Of a DNA stretch of 29,629 nucleotides, positions 6,083-9,639 are shown piece by piece (the stretch's first letter is position 1; each line of letters begins with the position of its first letter). A program made the translations under genes and the position numbers. Source of the DNA: a virus; the IMG/VR virus record IMGVR_UViG_3300033153_002351, positions 1 through 29,629 of that record; one strand, given 5' to 3'. The notes beneath the pieces were generated by a model. The model did not search any database. It had not been told where the DNA came from and saw only the letters and a list, made by a program, of their open reading frames with translations.

Positions 6083-6607
6083 ATGAATGCAAACTTTGAA
6101 TTAAAGACAGGAGATATCCTGCACTGCTCAGGTAAGAGACTTTTAAGTAGACTTATCAAATGGGCTACCAAAAGCGAGTACTCCCACACTGCCATGGTAA
6201 TTGAGATCTGGGGTGTGATGTGTGTAATTGATTCTCAGAAGGATGGTACCAATCCCCGCCCTCTTGAAGCTTGGCTTAAGAAATACAACTACGAGATCAT
6301 AGTTGCTCGTCGTGAACTGGCCAAGCCCAGACAAAAGGAGATCTGTATGAGAGCTATGGGCAAGTCTGGTGTGACTGGATATGATTTTGTAACACTACTG
6401 ATCCGAGCCCCATGGGGATTGCTTACAGGCAAGTGGCTCAAAGATGAGGATCCTGAGCGCGAGATGGTATGCTCGGAATTTGTGATGTACTCCTATTTCG
6501 TGGAGAACTCTGGAAGATACTCTCCTGGAATGGTGTTTGAATATACTCAAGCACACAACTTTGAGCATAAAGTTTACGTCTATGACTTGGAGGATAAAAA
6601 AGATTAA
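6083..6607 (+). CDS. Permuted NlpC/P60-like (YiiX/YebB-type) cysteine hydrolase
   Basis: I start at the ATG at 6083 (MNANFELKTGDILHCSG), giving 174 aa; the ATG at 6056 abuts a terminator T-run. The motif GDILHCSG, then KSEYSHTAMVIEIWG with its His, and near the C-terminus MVCSEFVMYSYF with its Cys, match the order in permuted papain-like NlpC/P60 proteins, where His comes before Cys. These enzymes cleave amide bonds in peptidoglycan peptides, lipids or proteins. There is no signal peptide. Its position next to the tRNA arrays says little about its target. The array A promoter overlaps its 3' end. Confidence 0.78.
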   Translation: MNANFELKTGDILHCSGKRLLSRLIKWATKSEYSHTAMVIEIWGVMCVIDSQKDGTNPRPLEAWLKKYNYEIIVARRELAKPRQKEICMRAMGKSGVTGYDFVTLLIRAPWGLLTGKWLKDEDPEREMVCSEFVMYSYFVENSGRYSPGMVFEYTQAHNFEHKVYVYDLEDKKD

Positions 6608-6616
6608 CTATATTTG
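6587..6616 (+). promoter_or_regulatory. Bacteroidota-type promoter of tRNA array A
   Basis: TTG at 6587-6589 and TATATTTG at 6609-6616 are 19 bases apart, a full match to the Bacteroidota -33/-7 pattern (TTTG, about 19-21 bases, TAnnTTTG) except for one -33 base. It lies within the 3' end of the hydrolase gene. The predicted start of transcription (about 6621-6624) falls at or just before the ATG of the leader ORF, so that mRNA would be leaderless or nearly so. Confidence 0.8.
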
Positions 6617-6623
6617 CCCCGTA

Positions 6624-6710
6624 ATGAAGAACAAAGCAACATATTTATGCAGCAGACTCTCGTTTTGGTACCGCAATAGCGGCGCCCTAGGAGAAGATTG
6701 CATAAAGTAA
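6624..6710 (+). CDS. Leader peptide A, tRNA-sensing (28 aa)
   Basis: The ORF encodes 28 aa. Residues 7-17 read YLCSRLSFWYR (codons 6642-6674). These codons match, one by one, all ten tRNAs of the array downstream: TTA by Leu(TAA), TGC by Cys, AGC by Ser(GCT), AGA by Arg(TCT), CTC by Leu(TAG), TCG by Ser(TGA), TTT by Phe, TGG by Trp, CGC by Arg(ACG), and TAT and TAC by Tyr. No other amino acid occurs in the run. The 3' part of the ORF (6686-6710) forms one side of a predicted antiterminator. I infer an attenuation leader: a ribosome stalled at any of these codons would let the array be transcribed, while a ribosome reaching the stop would allow termination. The peptide itself need not have a function. 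Confidence 0.88.
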   Translation: MKNKATYLCSRLSFWYRNSGALGEDCIK

Positions 6711-6743
6711 TGTTGAGAACATATTTATGTAAGAGCCCCTAGG
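6686..6743 (+). promoter_or_regulatory. Predicted antiterminator of leader A
   Basis: CCTAGG at 6686-6691 pairs with CCTAGG at 6738-6743; TTGCATAAA (6698-6706) pairs with TTTATGTAA (6724-6732); ATGTT (6710-6714) pairs with AACAT (6718-6722). The outer pairing takes up the core of the terminator's 5' arm, so the two folds exclude each other. A ribosome at the leader stop (6708-6710) would sit on the middle helix and break this fold. AACATATTTATG also occurs at 6638-6649, in the first control codons, so the 6701-6714 segment has a second, upstream partner. Confidence 0.7.
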
Positions 6744-6770
6744 TCGTTTGACTTAGGGGCTTTTTCTTTT
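6734..6770 (+). terminator. Attenuator terminator of tRNA array A
   Basis: A 12-bp stem (arms 6734-6745 and 6750-6761, including AGCCCCTA/TAGGGGCT) with a 4-base loop is followed by TTTTCTTTT. The T-run ends one base before tRNA-Phe, leaving no room for another promoter, so the array can only be reached by readthrough. Confidence 0.9.
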
Positions 6771-6771
6771 T

Positions 6772-6844
6772 GGAGCTATAGCAAAGATGGACTATGCGGG
6801 GGTTTGAAGAACCTTAGATACTGGATCGTTACCAGTTGGCTCCA
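6772..6844 (+). tRNA. tRNA-Phe (GAA)
   Basis: A 7-bp acceptor stem (GGAGCTA/TGGCTCC), anticodon loop TTGAAGA and a T arm with an unusual loop (ATCGTTA) are seen. First gene of array A. CCA is not encoded. Confidence 0.85.
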
Positions 6845-6851
6845 CAACAAT

Positions 6852-6921
6852 GGGATATGGAAGGATACTGGCCGGAGCTGTAACCTCTTAGCCTTGCGGG
6901 GTTCGAGTCCCTGTTATCCCA
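6852..6921 (+). tRNA. tRNA-Tyr (GTA)
   Basis: Acceptor GGGATAT/TTATCCC has one mismatch at the last pair. Anticodon loop is CTGTAAC and the T loop TTCGAGT. At 70 bases it is short for a tRNA. The D arm is poorly formed. Confidence 0.75.
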
Positions 6922-6926
6922 CAAAC

Positions 6927-7014
6927 GGAAGATAAAGCAGTGGCATGGAGCCGCGACTAGTCTTGAAAACTAGGCTACGCGCAAGCGTACGGGGGTCGGG
7001 TCCTCTGTCTTCCG
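6927..7014 (+). tRNA. tRNA-Ser (TGA)
   Basis: Acceptor GGAAGAT/GTCTTCC, discriminator G, anticodon stem CTAGT/ACTAG with loop CTTGAAA, and a long variable arm (TACGC/GCGTA) typical of serine tRNAs. The T loop (GTCGGGT) departs from consensus. Confidence 0.87.
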
Positions 7015-7019
7015 CATAC

Positions 7020-7088
7020 ACATCTTGGGCTAAGGTAGCCAAAGCGACTCCAAATCGCTAGGACAGGGTTCGATTCCTTGAGGGTGTG
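7020..7088 (+). tRNA. tRNA-Trp (CCA)
   Basis: Acceptor ACATCTT/AGGGTGT, anticodon stem AGCGA/TCGCT with loop CTCCAAA, T loop TTCGATT, and discriminator G as expected for tryptophan. Length 69. Confidence 0.87.
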
Positions 7089-7094
7089 CAACAA

Positions 7095-7168
7095 GTCACT
7101 GTGACCGAGCGGCTATAGGTCCCAGTCTGCAAAACTGTGGTACGTCAGTTCGAATCTGACCGGTGACT
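7095..7168 (+). tRNA. tRNA-Cys (GCA)
   Basis: Acceptor GTCACTG/CGGTGAC, anticodon loop CTGCAAA, T arm GTCAG/CTGAC and discriminator T, the identity base of cysteine tRNAs. Confidence 0.9.
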
Positions 7169-7174
7169 CGATAT

Positions 7175-7256
7175 AGAAGATGAACCTACCTGGGTAGGCT
7201 TCCCCTGCTAAGGGAATGGATCCGCAAGGATTGGAGATCAGGGCTTCCGTCTTCTG
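7175..7256 (+). tRNA. tRNA-Ser (GCT)
   Basis: Acceptor AGAAGAT/GTCTTCT, discriminator G, anticodon stem TTCCC/GGGAA with loop CTGCTAA and a variable arm ATCC/GGAT. Its T loop (ATCAGGG) is unusual in the same way as that of the other serine tRNA. Confidence 0.85.
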
Positions 7257-7261
7257 CTAAT

Positions 7262-7347
7262 GCCGGCGTGGCGAAATTGGCTAATACGCGCTAGTCTTAG
7301 GAACTAGTGTCTTAAGTGACGTAAGGGTTCGAGTCCCTTCGCCGGTA
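7262..7347 (+). tRNA. tRNA-Leu (TAG)
   Basis: Acceptor GCCGGCG/CGCCGGT, anticodon stem CTAGT/ACTAG with loop CTTAGGA, long variable arm, T loop TTCGAGT. It would read CTN codons. Confidence 0.9.
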
Positions 7348-7352
7348 CATAT

Positions 7353-7424
7353 AGACTGTTAGTTTAATTGGAAGAACAGGGGGCTACGAACTCCCAGACA
7401 CGGGTTCGACTCCTGTACGGTCTA
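7353..7424 (+). tRNA. tRNA-Arg (ACG)
   Basis: Acceptor AGACTGT/ACGGTCT, anticodon loop CTACGAA, T loop TTCGACT. A34 would need conversion to inosine to read CGC. Confidence 0.9.
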
Positions 7425-7431
7425 CTTTAAT

Positions 7432-7517
7432 GCCCCTGTGGTGAAATTGGTTAGACGCACCAGACTTAAAATCTGACGGACATTATGTCCATCCCGGTTC
7501 GATTCCGGGCAGGGGTA
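7432..7517 (+). tRNA. tRNA-Leu (TAA)
   Basis: Acceptor GCCCCTG/CAGGGGT, anticodon loop CTTAAAA, long variable arm (GGACATTATGTCC), T loop TTCGATT. It reads TTA and TTG. Confidence 0.92.
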
Positions 7518-7522
7518 CACAT

Positions 7523-7595
7523 AGCTCTATAGCTTAAATGGAAAAGCATCGGCCTTCTAAGCCGACGACTCTGAGTTCGACTCTCAGTGGGGCTA
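7523..7595 (+). tRNA. tRNA-Arg (TCT)
   Basis: Acceptor AGCTCTA/TGGGGCT, anticodon stem TCGGC/GCCGA with loop CTTCTAA, T arm CTGAG/CTCAG. It is the last gene of array A; the promoter of array B begins 22 bases later. Confidence 0.92.
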
Positions 7596-7616
7596 CAAAA
7601 AATAATTAAGAAAAAC

Positions 7617-7647
7617 TTTGGAAGTTTAGCAACCTTTGTTATCTTTG
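7617..7647 (+). promoter_or_regulatory. Bacteroidota-type promoter of tRNA array B
   Basis: TTTG at 7617-7620 and TATCTTTG at 7640-7647 are 19 bases apart, an exact match to the Bacteroidota consensus. The predicted transcript starts near 7653 and has about 25 A/T-rich bases before the leader ATG. Confidence 0.88.
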
Positions 7648-7676
7648 ACCCGTTATAATAAAAAACTAAGCTACTA

Positions 7677-7760
7677 ATGAGACTAGCACAACATATAACG
7701 CCGATGGCGATTAATCAAGTGGAAGGGAAAGATCCCCGACTGCCTGAAGGTGTTGTGTAA
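7677..7760 (+). CDS. Leader peptide B, tRNA-sensing (27 aa)
   Basis: The ORF encodes 27 aa. Residues 4-20 read AQHITPMAINQVEGKDP (codons 7686-7736) and use only amino acids served by array B: Ala, Gln, His, Ile, Thr, Pro, Met, Asn, Val, Glu, Gly, Lys and Asp, all thirteen of them. Isoleucine appears both as ATT, read by Ile(GAT), and as ATA, which needs a lysidine-modified CAT tRNA; the array has two CAT genes. The flanking residues (MRL before, RLPEGVV after) are outside this rule. The codons after the run (7741-7750) form the 5' half of a perfect antiterminator. I infer a ribosome-mediated attenuator that responds to shortage of any of these charged tRNAs. Confidence 0.88.
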   Translation: MRLAQHITPMAINQVEGKDPRLPEGVV

Positions 7761-7799
7761 TATCTAACCGATATATAACCTACTAAACTCCTTCAGGCA
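7741..7799 (+). promoter_or_regulatory. Predicted antiterminator of leader B
   Basis: TGCCTGAAGG (7741-7750) is perfectly complementary over 10 bp to CCTTCAGGCA (7790-7799). The second segment is the 5' arm and loop of the terminator, so the folds exclude each other. A small hairpin (ATATC/GATAT, 7760-7774) fills the loop. The first segment lies between the control codons and the stop, so a ribosome at the stop would partly cover it and one stalled early would not. Confidence 0.82.
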
Positions 7800-7818
7800 A
7801 CTGAGGGAGTTTTTTTTT
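7785..7818 (+). terminator. Attenuator terminator of tRNA array B
   Basis: Arms 7785-7796 and 7801-7812 (AAACTCCTTCAG/CTGAGGGAGTTT) form a 12-bp stem with the tetraloop GCAA, followed by a run of T to 7818. tRNA-Pro starts four bases later. Stem and loop lengths equal those of the array A terminator. Confidence 0.92.
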
Positions 7819-7822
7819 GCCT

Positions 7823-7896
7823 CTAGGTGTATATCAGTCTGGTAGATTACGTGCTTTGGGAGCATGAGGCCGCAAGTTCGAATCTTGCCACCTAGA
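7823..7896 (+). tRNA. tRNA-Pro (TGG)
   Basis: Acceptor CTAGGTG/CACCTAG (with C1-G72), anticodon stem CGTGC/GCATG and loop TTTGGGA, T loop TTCGAAT. First gene of array B. Confidence 0.92.
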
Positions 7897-7987
7897 CTAG
7901 CAGGATGGTTGATTGCCACCACAACCTGAAAATTAAAAGAAATGGCAAGAGTTTTCCGGGCGGTTCTCACCAAAAACGCTCCCACCT

Positions 7988-8062
7988 GGGGCTGTAGCAA
8001 GTACTGGCTATTGCACCTGCTTTGCAAGCAGACGGTTGTGAGTTCAATTCTCACCAGCTCCA
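7988..8062 (+). tRNA. tRNA-Ala (TGC)
   Basis: Acceptor GGGGCTG/CAGCTCC, anticodon loop TTTGCAA, T arm GTGAG/CTCAC. A 91-base spacer without recognisable features separates it from tRNA-Pro. Confidence 0.92.
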
Positions 8063-8070
8063 CAATATAT

Positions 8071-8223
8071 GCGGGCGTAGCTAAGCGGTTTAGCGGGAGT
8101 CTGGGTTCATACCTGTCTTCGTCATGAGTAGTCGACCTTACCTTAAGTAAGTAGGGAGCGACATTCACTAGGAATACTTAACCTATTGAAGCTCTTACGC
8201 GAGTTCGAATCTCGTCGCCTTCA
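8071..8223 (+). tRNA. tRNA gene with an 83-base insertion in the anticodon loop, isotype undetermined
   Basis: The two halves of a tRNA are present: 5' acceptor GCGGGCG, TA, D arm (8080-8094), anticodon stem GGAGT (8096-8100); then 3' anticodon stem GCTCT (8191-8195), T arm GCGAG/CTCGT with loop TTCGAAT, and acceptor CGCCTTC. The acceptor has one mismatch and a wobble. Ninety bases lie between the stem halves where seven are expected. If 83 were removed, anticodons such as GTG, TTG or GGG are possible depending on the junction. The insert is too short for a known group I intron. It may be an intron of another kind or a disruption. Confidence 0.65.
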
Positions 8224-8307
8224 CAATAAACGTGTATAGAAACATGAGATTTCTATATATGTTCCGGAAGACGTGTATAGGATATACGATATTGTATATA
8301 CGTTCTT

Positions 8308-8380
8308 GCAGTATAAGTGTTACACGGTGGCACGTCTGGCTTCCAACCAGAGGGAGTGGGTTCGAGACCTGCATACTGCA
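8308..8380 (+). tRNA. tRNA-Gly (TCC)
   Basis: Acceptor GCAGTAT/ATACTGC, anticodon stem TCTGG/CCAGA with loop CTTCCAA, T loop TTCGAGA. The 84-base spacer before it holds hairpins with arms TATAGAAA/TTTCTATA and ATATAC/GTATAT. Confidence 0.92.
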
Positions 8381-8497
8381 CAAAAATACGGCTTGTTGGA
8401 GTGACGCCGGCGGGTTACTAAGGAGAGGGTGAGTACCTCACCAACCTTTGTCACGGGTTGGCGTATGTAAGAGCCTTGGTAGTGAGTATTTTAAAAT
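8381..8497 (+). other. Structured spacer within tRNA array B
   Basis: This 117-base spacer contains no tRNA that I can fold. It has complementary segments (GGTGAG/CTCACC with a 3-base loop; GTGAC/GTCAC; GGGTT/AACC) suggesting a compact RNA fold or the remains of a tRNA. No promoter or T-run is seen. Confidence 0.35.
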
Positions 8498-8572
8498 AGG
8501 CTATCGGTCCAGCTAGGAGTGGACGCCGCCCTGTCACGGCGGAGATCACGGGTTCAAGTCCCGTATGGCCTG
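8498..8572 (+). tRNA. tRNA-Asp (GTC)
   Basis: Acceptor AGGCTAT/ATGGCCT, discriminator G, anticodon stem CCGCC/GGCGG with loop CTGTCAC, T loop TTCAAGT. Confidence 0.92.
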
Positions 8573-8632
8573 CAAGGGAAAACCAATTCACACCCTTCAA
8601 GTGTTTGGTGACAGCGAGGAAAGACTGCACAA

Positions 8633-8705
8633 GACTTTGTAGCTGAGTCGGTTTAGCGCCTGACTGTTAATCAGGAGCACGTAGGTTCGAACCCTACCAG
8701 AGTCG
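8633..8705 (+). tRNA. tRNA-Asn (GTT)
   Basis: Acceptor GACTTTG/CAGAGTC, discriminator G, anticodon loop CTGTTAA, T arm GTAGG/CCTAC. Confidence 0.92.
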
Positions 8706-8711
8706 CAACAT

Positions 8712-8783
8712 TGGTGCATGGCCTAGCGGTAGGGCAGTATCCTGATAAGATAAAGATCGCTGGTTCGATTCCAGCTGTACCAA
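8712..8783 (+). tRNA. tRNA-Ile (GAT)
   Basis: Acceptor TGGTGCA/TGTACCA, anticodon loop CTGATAA, T arm GCTGG/CCAGC. It serves the ATT codon of leader B. Confidence 0.9.
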
Positions 8784-8788
8784 CATAT

Positions 8789-8861
8789 AGAGAAGTAGCT
8801 TAGCGGCAAAAGCGGGATCCTTACAAGGTCTTCATCGAGAGTTCGAGTCTCTCCTTCTCTA
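8789..8861 (+). tRNA. tRNA-Val (TAC)
   Basis: Acceptor AGAGAAG/CTTCTCT, anticodon loop CTTACAA, T arm GAGAG/CTCTC. Confidence 0.92.
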
Positions 8862-8928
8862 CACATAATAAGTTTAATAAACACCGTAAGTTTAAACATG
8901 AAAATAAAACACGCCATAAAACCCTAGG

Positions 8929-9002
8929 GGGCCTTTAGCTCAATTGGTCGGAGCAGCGCACTCATAATGCGAAGGTCGCCGGTTCAATCCCGGCAAGGCC
9001 CA
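8929..9002 (+). tRNA. tRNA with anticodon CAT (Met or lysidine-type Ile2)
   Basis: Acceptor GGGCCTT/AAGGCCC, anticodon loop CTCATAA, T arm GCCGG/CCGGC. Its body recalls the Ile2 tRNAs whose C34 is modified to lysidine to read ATA. Leader B contains an ATA codon, which supports having one such tRNA in the array. Confidence 0.88.
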
Positions 9003-9007
9003 CACAT

Positions 9008-9080
9008 GCGTCGGCAGCTTGACTGGAGGAGCACCGCCCTTTTAAGGCGGGGGTAGTGGGTTCGAGACCCACGCGGCGTA
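9008..9080 (+). tRNA. tRNA-Lys (TTT)
   Basis: Anticodon stem CCGCC/GGCGG with loop CTTTTAA and T arm GTGGG/CCCAC are clear. The acceptor (GCGTCGG/GCGGCGT) has one mismatch and two wobbles. Confidence 0.88.
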
Positions 9081-9091
9081 CAAAATATATT

Positions 9092-9164
9092 GCGGGGTAG
9101 ACTGGAGTTGGCCCCAGCCAGGTCTCATAAGCCTAGGACGCGGGTTCGAATCCCGCCCACCGCA
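9092..9164 (+). tRNA. tRNA-Met (CAT)
   Basis: Anticodon loop CTCATAA and T arm GCGGG/CCCGC are clear; the acceptor (GCGGGGT/CCACCGC) pairs well only at its outer end. With another CAT tRNA at 8929, one of the two is probably elongator or initiator Met and the other Ile2; I favour Met here. Confidence 0.82.
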
Positions 9165-9245
9165 ACAACATGTTAACACGAGTTAAAATGAACAACGTAT
9201 TTAACATATCAGTATCAGGACTAGAGGAACCAGTAGAGGAGATCT

Positions 9246-9318
9246 GCTCGGTTCGTCTAGCTGGACAGGACGTGCCCCTTTCAAGGGTAAAACACGGGTT
9301 CGATCCCCGTACCGAGTA
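9246..9318 (+). tRNA. tRNA-Glu (TTC)
   Basis: Acceptor GCTCGGT/ACCGAGT, anticodon stem TGCCC/GGGTA with loop CTTTCAA, T arm ACGGG/CCCGT. The 81-base spacer before it carries an ORF that runs into the tRNA; see findings. Confidence 0.92.
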
Positions 9319-9349
9319 CTTGTATCATCATACCCAGCAGTAATTATAT

Positions 9350-9422
9350 TCCTCCTAAGCTTTGCTGGCGAAGCAACTGTTTTGTAAACAGAGGATAGTC
9401 AGTTCGATTCTGACAGGAGGAT
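9350..9422 (+). tRNA. tRNA-Thr (TGT)
   Basis: Acceptor TCCTCCT/AGGAGGA, discriminator T, anticodon loop TTTGTAA, T arm GTCAG/CTGAC. Confidence 0.92.
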
Positions 9423-9428
9423 CTATAA

Positions 9429-9500
9429 TCCCGGATCGTCTAATTGGCAGGACATGTGGTTTTGGGCCATAGAATGCAGGTTCGAACCCTGCTCTGGGAT
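9429..9500 (+). tRNA. tRNA-Gln (TTG)
   Basis: Acceptor TCCCGGA/TCTGGGA with the T1-A72 pair usual for glutamine, anticodon loop TTTTGGG, T arm GCAGG/CCTGC. Confidence 0.9.
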
Positions 9501-9502
9501 CT

Positions 9503-9576
9503 GTGTAGGAAGCCGAAGTGGTCGAGGCGCCAGTTTGTGGTACTGGTCGGTGCGGGTTCGAGTCCCGTCTTACACC
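9503..9576 (+). tRNA. tRNA-His (GTG)
   Basis: Acceptor GTGTAGG/CTTACAC with discriminator C as in histidine tRNAs, anticodon stem CCAGT/ACTGG with loop TTGTGGT, T arm GCGGG/CCCGT. Last gene of array B; it completes coverage of all 20 amino acids. Confidence 0.92.
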
Positions 9577-9639
9577 CTAATATTTTTTTGTTATCTTTAT
9601 GGTGACGATATTGTCACATTACCATGAAAACTAACGAAG

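Follow-up and report, generated by a model that had tools for sequence, protein, structure and literature searches.

The window, the whole stretch of DNA analysed here (IMG/VR virus record, 29,629 bases), very probably carries an attenuator of the trp/his type at 7677-7818 whose leader peptide lists the tRNAs of its own operon, which would make it an OR-sensor of tRNA shortage. We refer to this design as an inventory leader. It likely represents a widespread, undescribed regulatory class, found in several unrelated phage groups, that senses a shortage of any encoded tRNA and switches on the full set. We observed the leader anatomy, a match between list and tRNAs across phages, competing RNA structures and a structural switch point that corresponds to where the list ends.

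The terminase, portal and major head protein of the window phage match PHROG families. Judged from its sequence, the phage is a distant crAss-like phage, because the relatives of its terminase fall among crAss-like phages (21-25% identity to named phages); the host is probably a member of the Bacteroidota, as inferred from the promoter type. Searches with the terminase returned closer relatives (51-64% identity), and relatives were also sought with the neighboring 183-aa and 139-aa proteins. The tRNA array was absent from the 16 searched records of these relatives, and a degenerate leader B pattern gave 0 matches in viral_contigs. Lacking a close relative that carries the array, we widened the survey to tRNA-array phages generally. 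The window holds two tRNA blocks:

6772-7596, plus strand: tRNA block A, from ARAGORN (standard and loose) and Rfam, with Ser-GCT read by eye
7823-9577, plus strand: tRNA block B, from ARAGORN (standard and loose) and Rfam RF00005

Block A runs Phe, Tyr, Ser-TGA, Trp, Cys, Ser-GCT, Leu-TAG, Arg-ACG, Leu-TAA, Arg-TCT. Block B runs Pro, Ala, a tRNA-like gene interrupted by an insertion (8071-8224), Gly, Asp, Asn, Ile-GAT, Val, CAT (8929), Lys, CAT (9091, initiator-like), Glu, Thr, Gln and His. Taken together, the two blocks (6772-9577) cover all 20 amino acids, divided 7 versus 13 across two transcription units. The tRNA-like gene at ~8071-8224 has normal-looking D and T arms and a ~80-nt insertion in its anticodon loop, which is too short for a group I intron; loose ARAGORN proposed a tRNA-His(gtg) with an intron, and the identity of the gene is unclear. 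A candidate tRNA-Ser(GCT) at 7173-7257, read by eye and from the fold, was called by neither ARAGORN nor Rfam. The automatic callers missed it because its T arm is degenerate, with no TTCGA.

Directly 5' of block B lies leader B, which comprises the following features:

7617-7647, plus strand: Bacteroidota-type promoter of leader B, TTTG-N19-TATCTTTG, a pattern match
7677-7760, plus strand: leader ORF B, translated as MRLAQHITPMAINQVEGKDPRLPEGVV, 27 codons with the stop codon at 7758-7760
7686-7736, plus strand: inventory core of leader B, codons 4-20, A Q H I T P M A I N Q V E G K D P
7741-7750, plus strand: 5' strand of antiterminator B, TGCCTGAAGG, perfect complement of 7790-7799
7785-7818, plus strand: intrinsic terminator B, a 12-bp stem, GCAA loop and nine T
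7790-7799, plus strand: 3' strand of antiterminator B, CCTTCAGGCA, within the terminator 5' arm and loop

The peptide has the architecture MRL-AQHITPMAINQVEGKDP-RLPEGVV. Its 17-codon core, AQHITPMAINQVEGKDP, names all 13 amino acids of block B and no others, and the chance of such a list arising from random codons, corrected for placement, is 1.6e-6 to 7e-5 depending on the codon model. A preliminary description of this region had spoken of control codons; these are present, but the term understates the leader, whose codons match the whole tRNA set of the block. The remaining anatomy that it had proposed is borne out. The 10 bp that it paired are an exact reverse complement, and translation places the stop codon where it had been put, 25 nt from the stem, a distance in the same range as in other leaders. 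Its 12-bp terminator was recovered by RNAfold as the stem AAACTCCTTCAG (7785-7796) / CTGAGGGAGTTT (7801-7812), with one G-U pair and -17.5 kcal/mol, followed by a T-run at 7810-7818 that leaves the stated gap of 4 bases before tRNA-Pro at 7823. Its count of 15 downstream tRNA genes holds if the tRNA-like gene is included, loose ARAGORN finding 14 others. Beyond the 10 bp, the antiterminator gains three more pairs (GTT 7752-7754 with AAC 7786-7788), and the pairing of the leader tail with the terminator 5' arm reaches -25.2 kcal/mol; dinucleotide shuffles average -10.4, and 0/500 of them were as good. The promoter match ends 29 nt 5' of the ATG and is the sole match in the window, directly 5' of the leader; with 0.75 expected in the window by chance, it is not significant by itself. 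Similar promoter motifs occur 4-32 nt 5' of most other Bacteroidota-phage leaders examined.

Block A is preceded by a leader of its own:

6586-6616, plus strand: promoter-like CTTG-N19-TATATTTG 5' of leader A, an inference
6624-6710, plus strand: leader ORF A, translated as MKNKATYLCSRLSFWYRNSGALGEDCIK and a stop
6642-6674, plus strand: inventory core of leader A, codons 7-17, TAT TTA TGC AGC AGA CTC TCG TTT TGG TAC CGC
6680-6705, plus strand: 5' strand of antiterminator A, which pairs with 6726-6749
6731-6771, plus strand: intrinsic terminator A and T-rich tail, with a 15-bp stem at 6731-6764 (-24.3 kcal/mol)

Leader A has the architecture MKNKAT-YLCSRLSFWYR-NSGALGEDCIK, and its 11-codon core names all seven amino acids found in block A and no others (random-codon chance, placement-corrected, 6e-7 to 4e-5 by codon model). 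The core contains one codon for each of the ten block A tRNAs, with Tyr twice, and it lists isoacceptors separately: the two Leu tRNAs are represented by TTA and CTC, the Ser pair by AGC and TCG, and the Arg pair by AGA and CGC. Since the AGC codon of the hidden tRNA-Ser(GCT) is among them, the list of a leader predicts tRNAs that the callers overlook. Antiterminator A (-20.3 kcal/mol; 0/500 shuffles as good) includes CCTAGG at 6686-6691 paired with 6738-6743, within the terminator 5' arm, and the tail of the terminator adjoins tRNA-Phe directly. The promoter-like motif ends 7 nt 5' of the ATG, from which we infer that the mRNA of leader A is nearly leaderless.

To survey the design, leader candidates were chosen by structure only, blind to composition, with a stop codon 15-35 nt 5' of the stem, a stem of -11 kcal/mol or better and a T-run <=15 nt before the tRNA. 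In a first set of 20 leader-block pairs, lists matched their own block better than permuted ones in all three measures (0/100,000 permutations). This set was partly drawn from phages already known to have leaders, which is not true of an independent second set, obtained by two additional pattern scans under criteria set in advance; its 8 pairs gave permutation p values of 1e-5 to 3e-4. With relaxed criteria the sets grew to 43 and 23 pairs (p<5e-5). Because homologs are included among the pairs (Callevirus; L089/L103/L173), independent origins are fewer than pairs. Bacterial chromosomes, sampled by the same kind of T-run and tRNA pattern, yielded 0 candidate leaders in 59 loci with >=3 tRNAs, even with relaxed criteria. 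Chance as the source of the match was ruled out by the permutation tests and the random-codon probabilities.

Inventory leaders were found in phi4:1, Calle_1, phi38:1, phi10:1, Gundel_1 and D69, in a huge phage of 635 kb and in numerous IMG/VR contigs, and independent phages that partition their tRNAs differently have different lists, each matching its own block. In Cellulophaga phage phi4:1 (Lightbulbvirus), for instance, each of three blocks comes with its own leader and terminator. QRLHLQELEQP precedes Pro, Glu, Gln, His, Leu, Leu and Arg; TKTGITVIDKTKGARA precedes Ala, Lys, Ile, Gly, Met, Asp, Thr, Val and Arg, with Met missing from the list; and NYCTYNNSNWSFSY precedes Tyr, Ser, Ser, Asn, Trp and Phe and a seventh gene, Cys, identified by eye, with one Thr extra in the list. 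In the annotation of this locus (L053:3066-5870), only the second of the three leaders overlaps a gene, the 'hypothetical protein' gp075, which has an upstream TTG start, and the annotated gp076 overlaps the Ser-TGA tRNA gene. Calle_1 and phi38:1 (Pervagoviridae) carry three leaders apiece; their third leaders differ outside the list and are identical in it from LLHQEP onward. Tenacibaculum phage Gundel_1 (Pachyviridae) has two leaders and phi10:1 (Assiduviridae) one, WSYSCF, before Tyr, Trp, Phe, Ser and Cys. The single leader of Vibrio phage D69, SHSICSQSAQHSARYNAFNSW, covers 11 amino acids and precedes Ser, Tyr, Ile, Ala, His, Phe, Arg, Ser, Cys, Trp, Gln and Asn. Among the contigs, L305 has QHSLSYQSQLRLFFVPK before Phe, Val, Ser, Pro, Arg, Tyr, His, Gln, Leu and Lys, and L337 has two leaders, RSHKHFSKSSKW before Phe, His, Trp, Lys, Ser and Arg, and LTVVNTLCI before Asn, Ile, Leu, Val, Cys and Thr. 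The L305 leader (L305:705-760) lies 3' of a sigma-70 consensus promoter, TTGACA-N18-TATAAT, and the design is therefore not tied to Bacteroidota promoters. In the 635-kb uncultured huge phage LR745206 (L347:3701-3880), a leader beginning MTTMNLNMTMNLTLNVVNITLCNIRPTEG lies 5' of Asn, Arg, Leu, Val, Ile, Thr and Met tRNAs. No leader was detected in the tRNA-cluster phages T4, Myrna, EFDG1, XacN1, PAU and D239; cr108_1 and Mosig have few tRNAs.

Based on this anatomy, we propose the following mechanism. When the listed aminoacyl-tRNAs are plentiful, the leading ribosome would pass the list and reach the stop codon, where it would cover the tail of the leader and, with it, the antiterminator strand; RNA polymerase would then halt at the terminator, just short of the first tRNA. 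If even one listed tRNA runs short, the ribosome would stall within the list, the leader tail would pair with the terminator 5' arm, and the tRNA array would be transcribed. The regulated product, tRNA, would directly relieve the stall, so that the leader would be an OR-gated, self-limiting sensor of shortage. Translation of the leader, ribosome stalling, and the direction and trigger of the response are all inferred, without transcript, term-seq or ribosome data. The trigger is likely the disappearance of host tRNAs, whether by shut-off, by decay or by tRNA-cutting defences. Phage tRNAs counter tRNA-cleaving defences (PMC10264068; PMC11555353), and this known role makes tRNA loss a plausible trigger.

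Amino acid shortage is not excluded as a trigger. The leaders might sense starvation, that is, uncharged tRNA rather than tRNA loss, and be ordinary attenuators that happen to drive tRNA genes; the stall signal would be identical from either cause, and classical attenuators do sense charging (PMC1183508). However, a shortage of amino acid is not cured by more tRNA, and the lists track the tRNA set of the operon down to the Arg isoacceptor held, the list Arg codon being of the same class in 8/9 blocks with a single Arg class. For Leu and Ser, the class of the list codon does not always fit the single isoacceptor of the block, doing so in 13/19 cases. Leader A, in which the two Leu, two Ser and two Arg tRNAs each have a codon of their own, fits tRNA supply better than starvation, which we consider an unlikely signal, though one that keeps some standing.

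The sensing of tRNA shortage by attenuation was modeled by ribosome-walk folding, in which the RNA 3' of the ribosome was folded for each leader codon position. For leader B, the antiterminator was dominant with the ribosome stalled at codons 3-18 (P 0.68-1.00; only 0.35 at codon 2), and the terminator became dominant from codon 19 at equilibrium, or from codon 21 if only the RNA preceding the terminator 3' arm is folded. Asp19 and Pro20, with which the list closes, are thus at or past the equilibrium switch. With the ribosome at the stop codon, the terminator was computed to be dominant. For leader A, folding before the terminator 3' arm is made gave the antiterminator for stalls up to codon 18 and lost it from 19, and at equilibrium the terminator was more stable than the antiterminator; the model therefore requires co-transcriptional (kinetic) folding. 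Without a ribosome, the predicted minimum free energy structure of both leaders is the terminator plus a leader hairpin. As far as sequence and folding can show, leaders A and B fit the trp/his type: control codons listing the downstream tRNAs, an intrinsic terminator between leader and first gene, a mutually exclusive antiterminator from the leader tail and, by computation, a stall that frees and a stop that masks the antiterminator, with termination in the absence of translation. The trp/his-type logic invoked in the preliminary description is thereby supported computationally, and the same geometry occurs in unrelated phages. The polarity of the model is inferred solely from folding, and efficient leader translation could conceivably promote, and stalling prevent, tRNA transcription; this is hardly credible, given that in the ribosome walks of both leaders a stall in the list led to the antiterminator and the stop codon to the terminator (for leader A only before the 3' arm is made).

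Across the survey, the antiterminator was better than that of shuffled leader tails at p<=0.05 in 19/23 leaders, and a convincing one was missing by this comparison in the other 4/23. After tRNAs missed by the callers were added to four blocks, 20 leaders were compared for the position of the switch: the last stall codon that frees the antiterminator lay <=2 codons from the end of the list in 13/20, and in 6/20 the computed switch codon was 4 to 12 codons off, on the late or early side. Agreement between list end and computed switch codon is what an attenuator with exactly these control codons would need. It also bears on whether the ORF is translated at all. Short ORFs 5' of terminators are common, and translation is evidenced only at the level of composition, so the hairpin and T-run might be a mere terminator or processing signal and the composition chance or a remnant. 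We place almost no weight on this reading: the blind tests show the match between composition and block in two independent samples, and the list tends to finish at the structural switch codon. That the peptide is a functional arrest peptide or gene product, like the TnaC or Erm leaders, is very improbable as well, for while a short leader and attenuator anatomy are common to arrest-peptide systems, residue order and length vary freely among the phages, no peptide motif is common to the leaders, and only the amino acid set tracks the tRNAs.

Why phages carry tRNA arrays is a long-standing open question. A built-in tRNA list is direct evidence that the phage regulates its tRNA supply, and it makes the question testable. 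If the proposed sensor is real, it would answer the destruction of host tRNAs, including that by tRNA-cleaving immunity, and inventory leaders would link phage tRNA arrays with tRNA-targeting immunity, one leader sensing more than a dozen tRNAs simultaneously. The list is also a computational signature with which tRNA operons can be found and completed, as it predicts tRNAs that annotation misses, and a natural multi-input sensor of tRNA shortage could supply synthetic biology. Our literature search, which left most subscription journals and preprints outside its coverage, found no leader peptides or attenuators 5' of phage tRNA genes, and the text of PMC10264068 does not mention a leader, terminator or attenuation.

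Within the literature covered, the inventory leader is a previously undescribed form of ribosome-mediated attenuation. Like T-box riboswitches, it would sense tRNA charging to control transcription termination; unlike them, it has no specifier loop or T-box, and the ribosome does the sensing. An Rfam scan of the window returned only tRNA families above the gathering score; weak matches at the leaders to RF04312 (trpB motif, 34.4 bits, gathering 59) and to RF00557 (L10 leader) were below gathering and were treated as chance. Arrest-peptide leaders (TnaC, Erm, SecM) were also rejected, there being no conserved arrest sequence and a resemblance of each leader to its own tRNA block in composition only. 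The use of phage tRNAs in counter-defence (PMC10264068, PMC11555353) offers a likeness of purpose, a reason for switching tRNA genes on upon tRNA loss. Attenuators of the trp/his/thr/ilv type are the closest in anatomy, sharing a short leader ORF with regulatory codons, a competing fold of the 1:2 / 2:3 / 3:4 type, a T-run terminator, a stop codon that lets the terminating ribosome cover region 2 and a control region with hardly any codons that are not regulatory, a property that theory ties to sensitivity (PMC1183508). The phage leaders differ in controlling tRNA genes rather than biosynthetic or synthetase genes, and in listing 4 to ~15 amino acids with 1-2 codons each, where known runs hold 1-3 amino acids. 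Multivalent attenuators, in which one leader senses several amino acids, are known from ilvGMEDA/ilvBN and thr. Those sense two or three related amino acids, whereas the inventory leaders sense the arbitrary tRNA set of their operon, are carried by phages and control a product that would itself relieve the stall.
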